This document shows, piece by piece, positions 22,571-37,525 of a stretch of DNA of 46,505 nucleotides. The DNA lies in IMG/VR virus record IMGVR_UViG_3300027896_000003, positions 1 through 46,505 of that record; one strand, 5' to 3'. The notes under the pieces are model-generated. The model was not told where the DNA came from and did not search any database. It saw only the letters and a list, made by a program, of their open reading frames with translations. The stretch is from a virus. The first letter of the stretch is position 1. Every line of letters begins with the position of its first letter. Position numbers and translations under genes: made by a program.

Positions 22571-24832
22571 ATGAAATACGAAGAATTTCTTGAGAAAAAA
22601 GAAATTGTAGATATTCGATCAGGGTTTGAGCCGGATAGCCTAAATGAGATGCTGTTCCCGTTTCAAAAAGCAATAACCCGTTGGGCGTTGCGCCGTGGCA
22701 GAGCTGCCATTTTCGCCGATTGCGGCCTTGGTAAAAGCCCAATGCAATTAGAGTGGGCGAATCAGGTTCATAAAAAAACGGATAGTCCCGTTTTAATTCT
22801 TGCTCCCCTTGCCGTATCAAAACAGACTAAGCGTGAAGGTGAAAAATTCCATATTCCGGTGAATATATGTGAATCGCAGGAAGATGTTATAAACGGAATC
22901 AACATAACGAATTATGAAAAACTGCACAAATTCGATGCCTCTGTATTTTCCGGCATAGTCCTTGATGAATCCAGTATTTTGAAATCGTATACGGGTAAAT
23001 TCAGAAACTACATCATAGACCAGTTCAGGGCTACCCCTTATAAATTGGCATGTACCGCAACGCCTGCCCCGAATGACTTTGTTGAATTAGGGAATCATTC
23101 AGAATTTTTAAATGTATTGACAAGACCCGAAATGCTTTCCCTTTTCTTTATCAACGATACATCAAATGTGGGTACGTGGCGACTTAAGAAGCACGGCCAA
23201 GAGAAGTTTTGGGAATGGCTATGCTCATGGGCGGTAATGCTGTCAATGCCCTCAGATTTGGGTTTTGATGATAATGGCTTCGTCCTTCCAGAATTGAACA
23301 TCATAGAGCATGTTATTGAACACGGCACGCCAATCCCCGGCCAGTTGTTTGTTCAGAAGGCTGATACCCTAAGTGAGCGGCGAGAGGCACGGAAAGAATC
23401 AATACCGGAAAAGATAGAACTATTAAAGACAGTGATAAAAAAAGATGAACCGTGGCTGATCTGGTGTGACTACAACAAGGAAAGCGAAACAGTGGCAAAA
23501 GAGATTGCCGGTGCGAGAGAGGTTACTGGATCTCAAGAAGACCATATCAAAGAAAATCTGCTCATGGGATTTATTAAACAGGAATACGAAATACTTGTTA
23601 CTAAATCCCGAATCGCCGGGTTTGGTCTTAACCTTCAACATTGTAACAACATAGCTTTTATGGGGTTATCGGATAGTTATGAATCCTTTTATCAGGCAAT
23701 GAGAAGGTGTTGGCGGTTCGGGCAGTTAAGGCCTGTTAATTGCCATATTATAACCACGGATATTGAGGGAAATATTTTAGAAAATATCAAGCGCAAAGAA
23801 AGGGATGCCCAAAGGATGAAAGCGGAAATGATAAAAAATATGAAAGACATTTCGAAAGACCAACTTCAAGAAGTTTCGCATACATCATATGATTATAAAG
23901 TTGATAGCTATAAAACGGATAGATGTGAACTACACCTCGGCGATAACATAGAACTTATAAAACCATTAGAAGATGAATCGGTAGGGTTTTCTATATTCAG
24001 CCCGCCTTTTGCTTCGCTTTTTACCTATACGAACTCGATTAGAGACATGGGGAATTGTAGAGACAAGCAAGACTTTTTGAATCATTTTAAATTCCTTGTC
24101 ACTGAACTTTATCGGGTGTTGATGCCAGGTCGAGTCATTTCTATTCATTGTATGAACCTTCCGGCTACGATTACGCATGATGGATATATGGGATTACATG
24201 ACTTCAGGGGTGACATTATCCGGCTTTTTGAGTCTGAAAAGTTCATCTATCATTCGGAAATTTGCATCTGGAAAGACCCTCTCGTTCAGGCGGTAAGAAC
24301 TAAGGTTTTATCGTTAGCGCATAAGCAGGTGGTTAAAGATTCCTCTCGTTGCGGTCAGGGATTAGCTGATTATGTCGTTGTCATGCGTAAGCCTGGGAAT
24401 AACCCCATTCCTATTACGAGAAAGAAGGGATTTACTGAATATATCGGCGAACGGGAATTTCTCAATACGAATTTCAATGAAGATCAACGCAAGAATAAAC
24501 TGAGCCACGAAATATGGCAAAGATACGCATCGCCCGTATGGATGGACATTAGACAGACGAGAGTATTGAGTTCCGATATTGCGAGAGATGAAAAAGATGA
24601 AAAGCATGTATGCCCGTTGCAATTAGATACAATCGAAAGGTGCTTAGAGTTATGGAGCGCAAAGGGCGACACTGTATTAGACCCCTTCAGTGGAATTGGT
24701 TCTACAGTCTATTCAGCCGTGAAAATGGGGCGGTACGGAATAGGGTTTGAGTTAAAGGAAAGTTATTACAAACAGTCAATAAAGAATCTTGAATTTCTTG
24801 AAATGGAAGAACGGCAAAGCGTATTATTATGA
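22571..24832 (+). CDS. SNF2-like helicase fused to an amino-methylating DNA methyltransferase
   Basis: 753 residues. The N-terminal SF2 helicase has Walker A GLGKS (52-56), DESS in place of DEAH (132-135), TATP motif III (about 162-165) and motif VI QAMRRCWRFGQ (375-385). From about 440 follows a beta-class DNA methylase in which motif IV (SPPF, 477-480) precedes motif I (LDPFSGIGST, 703-712). This order and SPPF fit m4C or m6A enzymes. A helicase that moves on DNA while a fused enzyme methylates would protect phage DNA or mark replicated DNA. It is followed by a coupled cysteine-rich gene. Similar fusions occur in other phages, but none is firmly characterised to my knowledge. Confidence 0.85.
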   Translation: MKYEEFLEKKEIVDIRSGFEPDSLNEMLFPFQKAITRWALRRGRAAIFADCGLGKSPMQLEWANQVHKKTDSPVLILAPLAVSKQTKREGEKFHIPVNICESQEDVINGINITNYEKLHKFDASVFSGIVLDESSILKSYTGKFRNYIIDQFRATPYKLACTATPAPNDFVELGNHSEFLNVLTRPEMLSLFFINDTSNVGTWRLKKHGQEKFWEWLCSWAVMLSMPSDLGFDDNGFVLPELNIIEHVIEHGTPIPGQLFVQKADTLSERREARKESIPEKIELLKTVIKKDEPWLIWCDYNKESETVAKEIAGAREVTGSQEDHIKENLLMGFIKQEYEILVTKSRIAGFGLNLQHCNNIAFMGLSDSYESFYQAMRRCWRFGQLRPVNCHIITTDIEGNILENIKRKERDAQRMKAEMIKNMKDISKDQLQEVSHTSYDYKVDSYKTDRCELHLGDNIELIKPLEDESVGFSIFSPPFASLFTYTNSIRDMGNCRDKQDFLNHFKFLVTELYRVLMPGRVISIHCMNLPATITHDGYMGLHDFRGDIIRLFESEKFIYHSEICIWKDPLVQAVRTKVLSLAHKQVVKDSSRCGQGLADYVVVMRKPGNNPIPITRKKGFTEYIGEREFLNTNFNEDQRKNKLSHEIWQRYASPVWMDIRQTRVLSSDIARDEKDEKHVCPLQLDTIERCLELWSAKGDTVLDPFSGIGSTVYSAVKMGRYGIGFELKESYYKQSIKNLEFLEMEERQSVLL

Positions 24833-30603: not shown

Positions 30604-31371
30604 TTACGGAGCAACTGCATTTACATACATATAAGCATAACTAATATCCAGTGCTTCTCCAGCACCACATCCAAGAGCCTCTCCAATTTGAAGTAATTTC
30701 AATCCATAATCACCTTTTGTTATATTAACAGCATCTCCATTATCAACCTTTATTGTTCCGGCTGTTCCAGATGTAAGGATAATAGTTAATGTATGCCACG
30801 TTGCAAGAGATATTGCCTGTGTGGAAGTACCTCCCGACCCTGTATTAAATCTTATAAATAAATTAGTTGCAGATGTGCATTGAGCTGCCTGATCACAATA
30901 AAGTTTTACATATCCAATCTTATTGGATAAATGATCATCAAGAATTACTATTGAAAAAGTCGAATACCCATCCAATGCAATTGATGCAATATAAAACTGT
31001 ACAACTATAGTATGGGTATAAGTTTTATCTGTTTCAGTTGTCAATGTTAGTAATGAATAAGCATTTCCTGCTGCTACATTAGCTCTTAAACACTGAAGAC
31101 ATCCACCAGTCAAGACAGTGCCAGGACATGAATAATCATTATCCATAGTTCCTGATTCATTTAAATTCCATGCTCCCCCTACTCCGCCAGAATCAAAACC
31201 AGTTCCCTCAAAACCTTCATTGTGGATATTTCCAGTGGAGGGTGTCGTACAAACCGCCGCCGCACTCCCGCCGCCCACTATCCCCTGAAGCATCTGAAGG
31301 TGAGCATTTTGGGGGAAAGCCACAATCAATAATAAGACAAGAAGTATGTACCTGAATATATTTTTCATCAT
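30604..31371 (-). CDS. exported protein with lectin-like beta-sandwich
   Basis: 255 residues from ATG 31371 after GTGGAG. An N-terminal signal-like hydrophobic segment (FRYILLVLLLIVAF) precedes a Gly-rich linker and a beta-rich domain of strand pairs (TWHTLTIILTSGTAGTIKV, DGYSTFSIVILDD) that resembles concanavalin A-like/LamG lectins. Four or more cysteines suggest disulphides after export. ATGA-coupled to the HNH gene upstream. The role is unknown. Confidence 0.6.
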   Translation of the reverse strand: MMKNIFRYILLVLLLIVAFPQNAHLQMLQGIVGGGSAAAVCTTPSTGNIHNEGFEGTGFDSGGVGGAWNLNESGTMDNDYSCPGTVLTGGCLQCLRANVAAGNAYSLLTLTTETDKTYTHTIVVQFYIASIALDGYSTFSIVILDDHLSNKIGYVKLYCDQAAQCTSATNLFIRFNTGSGGTSTQAISLATWHTLTIILTSGTAGTIKVDNGDAVNITKGDYGLKLLQIGEALGCGAGEALDISYAYMYVNAVAP

Positions 31372-31820
31372 AGGTATCTCCACTTTACTCCGTTTTTTAT
31401 TCTACTAACTTGAGGTTGAGCGATTCCGTATTGTATTCCTATAGTCTTTTGTGGTCTCACATCGTTTCGTATAGCAATAACTTGGTCTTCTGTTAATTTA
31501 GCAAGGCCATGTTTCTCGCCATTGACATTCACTCTCCTCTTTTTAGAAATGCAATCTGCAACATTCTCTTTCTGTGTTCCCACAAACAGATGATCTGGAT
31601 TAATACAAGTTTTTACATCACATGAATGAAGAATAAACATTCCGTCAGGAATTGGGCCTTTACATTCTATATATGCAGCACGATGAACCGAAATATGCCT
31701 TTTGGGGTTGCGAATGGTCATTAACCCATACCCAGCCTTAGTTGTATAGCCTCTCCATATATGGCATCCATTATCCTTTTTGATGCTATGATCTTTTAAT
31801 CGGTCTATTAGTTTTTTCAT
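31368..31820 (-). CDS. HNH homing endonuclease with C-terminal DNA-binding helix
   Basis: 150 residues. The start CHIWRGYTTKAGYG and ISVHRAAYIECKG then HSCDVKTCINPDHLFVGTQKENV match the HNH_3-type nuclease of phage homing endonucleases. The C-terminal part (LTEDQVIAIRNDV, GIAQPQVSRIKNG) looks like a NUMOD/HTH DNA-binding element. It lies between two exported-protein genes. The downstream start overlaps its stop (ATGA), so it is well integrated. Confidence 0.85.
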   Translation of the reverse strand: MKKLIDRLKDHSIKKDNGCHIWRGYTTKAGYGLMTIRNPKRHISVHRAAYIECKGPIPDGMFILHSCDVKTCINPDHLFVGTQKENVADCISKKRRVNVNGEKHGLAKLTEDQVIAIRNDVRPQKTIGIQYGIAQPQVSRIKNGVKWRYL

Positions 31821-34803: not shown

Positions 34804-37125
34804 CTAGAAATCGATCCCCATTTTTCTCAGCTCTTTGATGTCGTCCATTATCTTATATAGTTCATAAATTGGCGATTTATCTATGTCCCTACCGTCAACT
34901 TTCTTCGCCGTTTCTTCCACATCGACAAGCATTTTATCAAGATTATTGCCCAAGATAACAATATAAATACCGCCGCTTGACCCCTGAACAATATGGTAGT
35001 ACCCTTCTTCATCACGACAGCAGCCCCATAGTTTAATCTTGTTTCTATCCTTCTCCTGTAGGTCAAGGGCAAGCCAGTTATCCTGTGCATGAGAACACTT
35101 GATATTCACAGCGATTACATACTTGCTTGCCGACTCGACTTTAATAGGCAGGGAATTAGTGCAAGCCCACATAACGGGAGTGTAATTTTTAACCCATGCC
35201 GTGTAAACAATTCCTAACGGGGCCGGAAATCTGCAATTTCCTGCCCATGTTGGCTTGCCATTCCTTCTTACATATATAATTTCATTAGGAACAGACACGC
35301 AATAAACATTTCCAACATAATTTTCTCTTGTTATGTGTTTGTATCTTGAATTATCTATATTGAAATCAATCTGACAAAGGCTTTCTCTAACTAAATATAT
35401 ATCATGATTCCTTGTATATTTTTTTCCTCTTGCCTGCATCATAGTTCCCGTTGAGTTTCTGCGAGATACAATTGCAAGATTCCCGACTTTTAATACTAGT
35501 TCTTGTAAATCATCTGCAAGTTGCTTCGATGTAGTAAAAAATAATCTTGCCCCGTTTTCCCTTATTGAGCCGTCCCCTAAACAAAAAGCATCTAAGAAAG
35601 CGTTTATTATGGCCGGAGCTGCATCCTTTATTTCTTGAGGGACATATTTTTCATTACACAAACCAAATTGCTTTAAGTATCGTACCAAGGGAACGCTACT
35701 CATTTGAAATCCGTTTTCATAACTAGAATATTTAATGGGAAAATTATCCAATATTGCCTTCATTTCATTAACCTTAGTTTTTTGTGCAATATTTATTTGT
35801 CCCTTTTGTTTGCAACATCCTTCAGCAAGATAAATACCAAGAAACTTGGCCCATGTAGCCATAGGGATATTTATTTCGCTGTGTTCTGCTACTTTATTTA
35901 TTCCTTTGCCCCTTCCGCTGTGCCATTTTGTTGTAATGCTTGGAATGATAAACGTATCATTCCCCACTCCTTTCCACTTTCCCGTTCTTGGTATTTTTGC
36001 GCCTTGTTTTATGTCCCTGGCTTCCACAAAACCGAAATCTTTATGAGACTGTCGCTGTATATACATTCTATGATCGGGAGTGACTAAAAGGTCAAAATTC
36101 TTTTCTCCCTTTATGGAAATCATTTCGCCGTTATATTCTTTTTCAATATATCCTATCGGTTTTTGATACTCGATATTATGATTATCTCTATTGAGGGTTG
36201 CTACGCTTTCGGATCTATCCAGGTCCTTAAAATATTTCCATCCCTTGTCTGTTAGTATTTCTGTCTGCTCATCAAAACAAGTCCAATCAATAGGAGCCGC
36301 AAAGTGTTTGTTTATTACCTTCTGCTCAATCGAAATAGCCCCTCTATGATTTTTCTCTTGTAATGTAGGCGTTATCTTCTTGATGAAGTCTTCGATGAAT
36401 GCAGGACCGGTTTCGTAAGAACGCCCTATATAGGGAATGCCGTGTTCAATACCTACAAGAAACGGCCTTAAAATTTCCTGTCCGTTAAAAAAAGCATCAA
36501 GTCCCGTTTCTGCCTTTGCTTCTATCCGGTCTTCAATCATGAAGGGTCGTTCTTCACTTAATGGGCCTGTTGCCGCTTCTAATTCAGTAAGATCGCCCTG
36601 AATAGACCGAACGTCTTTTGCGTAAAAGCTCTCTTTATCGCCTCTAAAAACATCGAGTTTTACATACTTATCTGGATTTTTCTCAATGAATGATTCCAGT
36701 TGCTTTACGCCTATTACCTGCCATGTCTTATGTCCTTTTGGGTGTGGCAATCCGATAAGTTTCTCAAGTTTGCGGGTTTCAAACCTATTCCTTTCAAGTT
36801 TTTCTCCCAACCCTGCCCCGTAAACGGGTAATTGCCCTAACTCTCTGAGAAAATGACACGCCCCGCCGTTGCCTATATCAAGAAATAACACCCAATCAAT
36901 AATCCCGTCATTTATAGGCTCGAAAAAGTCTATCACTTTATGGAAATTATCAGCCATATTCATTCCTATGGCATAACCCCTAAAACACGCAGCTTCTTCC
37001 CATGTTGTAAAGTAATGGACTTCTGCTACGTCTTTGGCGAGTCTGACGGCATGGGCCACGTTATCTCCGCTTCCGTCCCAGATTAACAGTCGCATTGATT
37101 TGAAATCGGGGTTATAAGTCTCCAT
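34804..37125 (-). CDS. PurD-like ATP-grasp protein interrupted by an intein
   Basis: 773 residues. Residues 1-282 and 631-773 are the extein (425 after splicing); 283-630 are an intein. The extein starts with a Rossmann-like LLIWDGSGDNVAHAVRLA, then GLGEKLERNRFETRKLEKLIGLP and FMIEDRIEA segments like the ATP-grasp and N-domains of phosphoribosylamine-glycine ligase. The intein splits the loop DWT-CRFPAPLG, which resembles the catalytic N-x-R-F region of PurD-type ATP-grasp enzymes. A C-terminal part (IYIVILGNNLDKMLVDVEE) fits the PurD C-domain. It lies between ejection-protein and tailspike genes. The substrate is unknown. Confidence 0.75.
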   Translation of the reverse strand: METYNPDFKSMRLLIWDGSGDNVAHAVRLAKDVAEVHYFTTWEEAACFRGYAIGMNMADNFHKVIDFFEPINDGIIDWVLFLDIGNGGACHFLRELGQLPVYGAGLGEKLERNRFETRKLEKLIGLPHPKGHKTWQVIGVKQLESFIEKNPDKYVKLDVFRGDKESFYAKDVRSIQGDLTELEAATGPLSEERPFMIEDRIEAKAETGLDAFFNGQEILRPFLVGIEHGIPYIGRSYETGPAFIEDFIKKITPTLQEKNHRGAISIEQKVINKHFAAPIDWTCFDEQTEILTDKGWKYFKDLDRSESVATLNRDNHNIEYQKPIGYIEKEYNGEMISIKGEKNFDLLVTPDHRMYIQRQSHKDFGFVEARDIKQGAKIPRTGKWKGVGNDTFIIPSITTKWHSGRGKGINKVAEHSEINIPMATWAKFLGIYLAEGCCKQKGQINIAQKTKVNEMKAILDNFPIKYSSYENGFQMSSVPLVRYLKQFGLCNEKYVPQEIKDAAPAIINAFLDAFCLGDGSIRENGARLFFTTSKQLADDLQELVLKVGNLAIVSRRNSTGTMMQARGKKYTRNHDIYLVRESLCQIDFNIDNSRYKHITRENYVGNVYCVSVPNEIIYVRRNGKPTWAGNCRFPAPLGIVYTAWVKNYTPVMWACTNSLPIKVESASKYVIAVNIKCSHAQDNWLALDLQEKDRNKIKLWGCCRDEEGYYHIVQGSSGGIYIVILGNNLDKMLVDVEETAKKVDGRDIDKSPIYELYKIMDDIKELRKMGIDF
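35236..36279 (-). other. intein with LAGLIDADG homing endonuclease
   Basis: 348 residues, from C283 (block A CFDEQTEILTD) to N630. Block B is TPDH (349-352). The two endonuclease motifs are LGIYLAEG and FLDAFCLGDG, each with an acidic residue. Blocks F and G end in VYCVSVPNEIIYV and WAGN followed by C631, so splicing nucleophiles C1, N-terminal Asn and C+1 are intact. The usual penultimate His is Gly, as seen in some inteins. The endonuclease looks intact. Confidence 0.9.
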
Positions 37126-37525
37126 GAGCCGCTTCCCATTCCTCTGACAGTTTATCAGCCATTGTGTTATAATCCTTGTCGTAATCCTTCCACTGATACC
37201 CCATTTTTTTGACCACGAATTTACTAAGCCTCATTGCTTTCATGTGCTGTTCTCTATACGGGCAATCTGAATGCGAGCCGGGGTCTTCAAGTTTGGGGTG
37301 TGCAAAATCCCAAGCGTCAACCATAGCCGCCGTGATTCCGGCCTTTTCGCAAAGTCCCCATTCAAATATTTCATGCAAAAGCGTTTCTAATTCTTTATCA
37401 AAGTCCATCCGTGATACGGTGAAATGAAGAACATCGCTTAGTGGAAACCAATCTCCTGTCGAATCATACCTCATCATCCGGTGAGGTACAGAGTTCACAA
37501 TCATCAATGGTAAATGTTCCATCAT
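37112..37525 (-). CDS. putative small metallopeptidase-like protein
   Basis: 137 residues. TLLHEIFEWGLCEKAGI (about 47-63) holds an HExxE-like core found in small phage zinc-protein families, followed by an H-rich segment (DFAHPKLEDPGSHSD). ATGA-coupled to the upstream ejection-protein gene. It could process a virion protein; the activity is unproven. Confidence 0.5.
   Translation of the reverse strand: MMEHLPLMIVNSVPHRMMRYDSTGDWFPLSDVLHFTVSRMDFDKELETLLHEIFEWGLCEKAGITAAMVDAWDFAHPKLEDPGSHSDCPYREQHMKAMRLSKFVVKKMGYQWKDYDKDYNTMADKLSEEWEAAHGDL

Follow-up and report, generated by a model that had tools for sequence, protein, structure and literature searches.

Introduction

Inteins that carry a LAGLIDADG endonuclease and end in Gly-Asn are known from Corynebacterium phage P1201 (thymidylate synthase), Gordonia phage GMA6 (terminase), EBPR siphovirus 2 (methylase) and Prevotella phage Lak-A1. 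The Thr and His of intein block B help the first acyl shift, and a penultimate His is common in inteins without being a defining feature. At position F:4, Asp is the commonest residue in inteins at large and Cys the next (PMC4031507). The class-1 RDF intein of a mycobacteriophage has a penultimate Gly and splices completely, restoring the His slows the reaction, and a His in block F may substitute for a missing penultimate His (PMC5050341).

Here we describe an intein that lacks the penultimate His, encoded in a 46,505-nucleotide stretch of viral DNA (IMG/VR record IMGVR_UViG_3300027896_000003, positions 1 to 46,505; hereafter, the window). The window intein would work by chemistry that is already known, and no description of its host enzyme as an intein carrier was found in the literature searched.

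Results

A complete LAGLIDADG intein with exact boundaries

By profile and fold, the insert in the precursor (Table 1) is a complete LAGLIDADG intein, with its edges confirmed to the residue. The boundaries given in the original prediction, residues 283–630 (35236–36279), proved exact, and both LAGLIDADG motifs keep the acidic residues that had been noted (E153 and D236). Profile searches of the window intein matched PF14890 Intein_splicing (1.8e-11) and TIGR01445 intein_Nterm (2.5e-6), and a Pfam search matched LAGLIDADG_3 (6.9e-7), each passing its own cut-off in at least one search; the splicing and endonuclease domains that had been expected were thus both detected. The PHROG matches of the precursor (thymidylate synthase and ribonucleotide reductase) cover the intein part, from about residue 280 on, and leave the extein uncovered. 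An AF2 model of the window intein, built from an input of 27 intein sequences in a folding run separate from that of an intein-free homologue, reached a pLDDT of 94.2 and matched the inteins TliVMA (7qsu and 7qss), PI-PkoII and PI-SceI, with 7qsu as the best match (E 1.3e-18).

Table 1 Features of the intein-containing locus and its neighbours in the window
Feature	Position	Strand	Basis or remark
Precursor ORF	34804..37125	(-)	773 aa, translated whole ORF
N-extein, residues 1-282	36280..37125	(-)	Rossmann-like N-terminal domain and most of the ATP-grasp domain; HMM positions 10-282, 230.7 bits
Intein, residues 283-630, 348 aa	35236..36279	(-)	Hint splicing domain with inserted LAGLIDADG endonuclease
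C-extein, residues 631-773	34807..35235	(-)	End of the ATP-grasp domain and GARS_C-like C-terminal domain; HMM positions 283-425, 89.6 bits
D280-W281-T282, first half of the predicted metal/phosphate motif	36280..36288	(-)	Directly before the splice site; D280 invariant in 26/26
C631 (+1 nucleophile) and R632	35230..35235	(-)	Second half of the motif; R632 is R284 of the spliced protein, invariant in 26/26
C283, intein residue 1, N-terminal splice nucleophile	36277..36279	(-)	Translation and intein alignment
VTPDH, intein block B	36070..36084	(-)	Alignment
LGIYLAEG, LAGLIDADG motif 1, acidic residue E153 of the intein	35818..35841	(-)	Profile and alignment
FLDAFCLGDG, LAGLIDADG motif 2, acidic residue D236 of the intein	35569..35598	(-)	Profile and alignment
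VYCVSVPNEIIYVRRNGKPTWAGN, intein blocks F and G	35236..35307	(-)	Cys at F:4, Glu at the block-F His position, penultimate Gly, terminal Asn
K156...R161..E165 of the extein, predicted ATP-binding loop	36631..36660	(-)	All invariant in the family alignment
137-aa gene with HExxE motif	37112..37525	(-)	Upstream; overlaps the ATP-grasp start by 14 nt
Free-standing HNH endonuclease	31368-31820	(-)	phrog_1872, 8.3e-30; ~3.4 kb downstream of the intein

Splice residues of the window intein and its relatives

An IMG/VR search with a profile made from seven inteins retrieved at least 536 relatives. The 80 most similar to the window were taken as the sample, so that the counts given here are not frequencies. 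The splice and endonuclease residues are conserved over the 81 aligned inteins: the N-terminal residue is Cys in all 81, block B has His in all 81 and Thr in 76, and Cys stands at F:4 in 74. At the penultimate position, 79 of the inteins have Gly, that of the window (Gly347) included, and the other two have Ser. The block-F His position is more variable (His in 38, Gly in 29 and Glu in 3 of the 81, with the window counted); the window intein has Glu333.

All splice residues had been reported as present in the window intein. This holds for C1, the TPDH of block B, the terminal N630 and the +1 residue C631. Since the penultimate His is replaced by Gly and the block-F His by Glu, the claim was overstated. 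The Glu in block F also rules out a substitution by a block-F His here, so that splicing of the window intein is likely rather than certain. By analogy, the norm of the family and the published phage intein favour splicing despite the missing His. A class 3 assignment was tried and rejected: the combination of a WCT triplet with no N-terminal nucleophile was not found, C1 being present and block G having Ala, not Thr, though F:4 is Cys.

The joined extein belongs to a phage family

The 425-residue joined extein gave no match in single-sequence searches of Pfam, PHROGs, NCBIfam, PDB, phage records and IMG/VR, the extein family had no match in Pfam, in PHROGs or among 50,697 phage records, and no homologue was found in phage and plasmid records. 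A degenerate DNA pattern for D-W-T-x-R-x-P-x-P-x-G found three uninterrupted homologues in IMG/VR, and profile and further pattern searches extended the set to 25 intein-free members with 22–36% identity, the kind of homologue that the original prediction had proposed to look for. Genome scans by profile and short pattern yielded no cellular member of the family among the matches listed.

To compute homology through the junction, the window sequence was left out of the HMM. Against this model, the joined extein gave one uninterrupted match of 339 bits over model positions 10–425, so that it aligns through the gap to the uninterrupted homologues. The precursor matched the same HMM in two pieces (model 10–283 and 281–425; residues 6–283 and 629–773), split at the intein edges. 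By these sequence criteria, the extein is a member of a phage family that the protein-family libraries have missed.

A PurD-like fold with the insertion in its active-site motif

The fold of the extein was derived from an intein-free homologue, L040, which is about 35% identical to the window extein. Its AF2 model (pLDDT 86) matched GAR synthetases at ranks 1–9 in a Foldseek comparison with the PDB (E 8.1e-22 to 2e-19; best 2yw2, TM 0.71), and matched GAR synthetase and biotin carboxylase at E < 1e-16. The predicted identity of the extein as an ATP-grasp protein with a PurD fold was thus confirmed through this homologue, with the E-value of 8.1e-22 to 2yw2. At the sequence level, searching with the family profile recovered PurD 2yw2 (4.4e-5) and aligned D-x-t-x-R with E-F-N-V-R; an hhalign comparison with a single E. 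coli PurD sequence was weak (local E 0.018) and is given no weight here.

Eight residues (K156, R161, E165, E206, D210, E267, D280 and R284) are invariant in the 26 aligned members, down to 22% identity. They include the Lys, the two acidic metal ligands and the Arg of an ATP-grasp enzyme (K156, E267, D280 and R284), and we take the spacing E267...D280-x-T-x-R284 to fit the two acidic ligands and Arg of ATP-grasps, by comparison with biotin carboxylase. Thr or Cys occupies the position of the typical metal-ligand Asn. The computed position of the intein, D-x-T↓C-R (the arrow marks the insertion point), is the counterpart of the ATP-grasp metal/phosphate motif E-x-N-x-R. D280 and R284, both invariant in 26 of 26, flank the site, in agreement with the earlier proposal that the intein splits an active-site motif.

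The description of the host as a purine-synthesis-like enzyme held only for the fold. The HKR...GPNTGGMG signature of PurD is absent from the window family and present in E. coli PurD, and the Pfam models GARS_A and GARS_C gave no match to the window extein. Given the PurD fold and the invariant residues without the PurD signature, the host is PurD-like in fold only, and PurD activity is unlikely, as are glycine and phosphoribosylamine as substrates. From the conserved residues, the host is probably an active ligase, and its likely reaction couples a carboxylate with an amine of a protein, a peptide or a metabolite.

Related inteins recur in phage ATP-grasp enzymes and shift between sites

The eight nearest inteins among the matches listed (L220–L227; 40–45% identical) all lie in PurD-like phage ATP-grasps, and the +1 residue is the Cys of the motif in every one. 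Five of the eight, L222 (EFT↓CRFG), L223, L224, L225 (EWS↓CRFG) and L227, are interrupted at D-x-T↓C-R or the corresponding site; in the other three (L220, L221 and L226), the intein lies a codon before this point, at D-x↓C-x-R. In L269, L292 and L294, the intein sits at a second active-site motif, G-x-N↓[TS]-G-E-M-G, the counterpart of GPN-TGGMG in PurD. The extein of L269 ends in ...YGLEFTC exactly at the contig end, where a second intein at the D/E-x-T↓C site is possible.

In a tree of 79 inteins, the window intein, L220–L227, L269 and L292 (11 rows) form one clade (99/95) that holds no intein from other genes; the L294 intein lies elsewhere, in another lineage. L223 and L226 carry sister inteins (100/96), the first at D-x-T↓C-R and the second at D-x↓C-x-R, which implies that the insertion point moved by one codon. 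The original prediction had called the ligase an unusual host for a phage intein. This is misleading, since the nearest inteins in IMG/VR repeatedly occupy the same motif of related ATP-grasps in other environmental phages, and the ligase looks instead like a repeatedly colonised host. Among the more distant inteins, one in L058 (3377-6841 (+)), 34% identical to that of the window, lies in a 1154-aa tail tape-measure-like protein. In L016 (3974-8248 (-)), a terminase-like protein carries two inteins (LAGLIDADG and HNH) on the same contig as an intein-free ATP-grasp homologue.

The computed trees of hosts and inteins conflict. The window intein groups with the L222 and L225 inteins (96/87); the window extein groups with the intein-free L040, L068, L075 and L083 (separating branch 99), and the L222 and L225 exteins group with E. 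coli PurD in a second subfamily. This second, more PurD-like subfamily comprises the hosts L222, L225, L269 and L292, and the exteins of L294 and L222, also of this subfamily, pass the GARS_A cut-off across their junctions. The GC content of the intein is 35.7%, versus 42.5% for the exteins. Taken together, the conflict between host and intein trees and the AT-richer intein support a transfer of the intein between diverged ATP-grasp relatives at a homologous site.

Gene neighbourhood

The HExxE gene upstream of the ATP-grasp gene has no Pfam or PHROG match, and its homologues adjoin ATP-grasp homologues in L072, L079, L096, L226 and L227; judged by this gene order, the two genes are a conserved two-gene unit. 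The ATP-grasp gene had been placed in a virion gene block. This is weakly shown in the window itself, where annotatable neighbours are few (the nearest are a tail-spike-like gene, 0.5 kb downstream, and the HNH endonuclease gene), and is better seen in several homologues that lie beside portal, protease or capsid genes. The neighbours are portal, prohead protease and major capsid genes in L042, portal, C39 peptidase and AstE/M14-like hydrolase genes in L040, and polyvalent-type proteins in L041 and L047. The linkage to virion genes is thus a tendency. Elsewhere in the window (22571-24832 (+)), a helicase is fused to an N6/N4 DNA methyltransferase (Helicase_C 3.1e-9; N6_N4_Mtase 2.7e-22).

Discussion

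Very probably, the product of the locus is a phage ATP-grasp ligase with the PurD fold, and a full-length class-1-type intein with a LAGLIDADG homing endonuclease is inserted in its metal/phosphate motif, D-W-T-C-R. Splicing, homing and ligase chemistry are what we infer, the account of splicing and homing following what is established for inteins. In this scheme, the whole precursor would be translated, C283 would take up the N-extein as a thioester and the chain would be handed from C283 to C631. Cyclisation of N630 would free the intein, and an S-to-N shift would leave ...IDWT-CRFPAPLG.... Splicing would be needed to make the motif whole and to let the ligase bind Mg-ATP. The endonuclease would cut intein-free alleles at the conserved site, and the intein would be copied in during mixed infection. 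Such homing into a conserved site would explain why, in enzymes that have diverged deeply, the nearest relatives are found in this motif too or are offset by a single codon.

The intein could be real and yet splice defectively or very slowly, leaving the ligase unspliced or cleaved and the gene effectively broken, which the Gly and Glu in place of the penultimate and block-F His might suggest. We consider this distinctly unlikely, because the Gly-Asn end is shared by 79 of the 81 aligned inteins, the family is widespread in phages (at least 536 stretches), which is unexpected of a dead design, and a phage intein with a penultimate Gly splices fully and is slowed by a restored His (PMC5050341). 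Moreover, the ORF is open over 773 aa, with the invariant extein residues kept on both sides. Alternatively, the defect could lie in the host: a catalytically dead ATP-grasp protein might have a structural or binding role in the virion, with the intein persisting through conservation of the site and not of the activity. The Thr or Cys at the usual metal-binding Asn and the homologues among head genes in some contigs fit this idea; the eight residues invariant in 26 members form the pattern expected for catalysis, and we regard a dead host as unlikely.

That the extein is an ordinary phage PurD boosting purine synthesis appears very unlikely. Purine genes are known in phages generally, and the N, ATP-grasp and C domains of the PurD fold are all present; the PurD signature and the GARS_A/GARS_C matches are missing, however, and the neighbours are the HExxE gene and, in relatives, portal, protease and capsid genes, not other pur genes. 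A Hedgehog/BIL-type Hint domain for secretion or cleavage, to which a weak PF01079 Hint match below cut-off might point, is hardly conceivable. The reading was rejected on motifs and is already contradicted by the complete blocks A, B, F and G, the terminal Asn, the +1 Cys and the LAGLIDADG insert, with VMA inteins as the best structural matches and an exact junction with uninterrupted homologues.

With the interrupted, active ligase as the preferred reading, the locus reveals a phage ATP-grasp family and a conserved partner gene that protein-family libraries have overlooked. It also provides a natural case of one intein lineage at two positions one codon apart and at a distant motif of the same enzyme fold, and thereby a basis for comparative work on the persistence of inteins at nucleotide-binding motifs and on their shifts between sites. 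More tentatively, and with rather less than even confidence, we suggest an undescribed phage ligase system in which the PurD-fold ATP-grasp and its small HExxE partner, possibly a metal-dependent hydrolase, would build or edit an amide bond on a molecule of the virion or of the host. The active-site motif of the ATP-grasp would then be the preferred target of a dedicated intein lineage that has crossed between deeply diverged subfamilies and moved between insertion points a codon apart.

Among the described systems, the inteins of P1201, GMA6, EBPR siphovirus 2 and Lak-A1 resemble that of the window in full-length alignment, C1, the block-F Cys, the Gly-Asn end and the LAGLIDADG insert. They differ in their host genes, in sequence (23–38% identity) and in the window's Glu at the block-F His position. 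The TliVMA and PhoVMA inteins (7qsu, 7qss, 7qst) share the Hint and LAGLIDADG architecture and give the best structural (1.3e-18) and profile (2.9e-17) matches, whereas their host is an archaeal V-ATPase. PurD (2yw2 and the E. coli enzyme) has the same N, ATP-grasp and C domain fold (TM 0.71), with D-x-T-x-R on E-F-N-V-R; unlike PurD, the window extein has neither HKR...GPNTGGMG nor a Pfam GARS match and keeps other partner genes. The inteins of L220–L227, L269 and L292 stand closest, although their exteins have diverged and those of L269 and L292 are interrupted at another motif: they fall in the same clade as the window intein and occupy the same or an adjacent insertion site in 8 of the 10.
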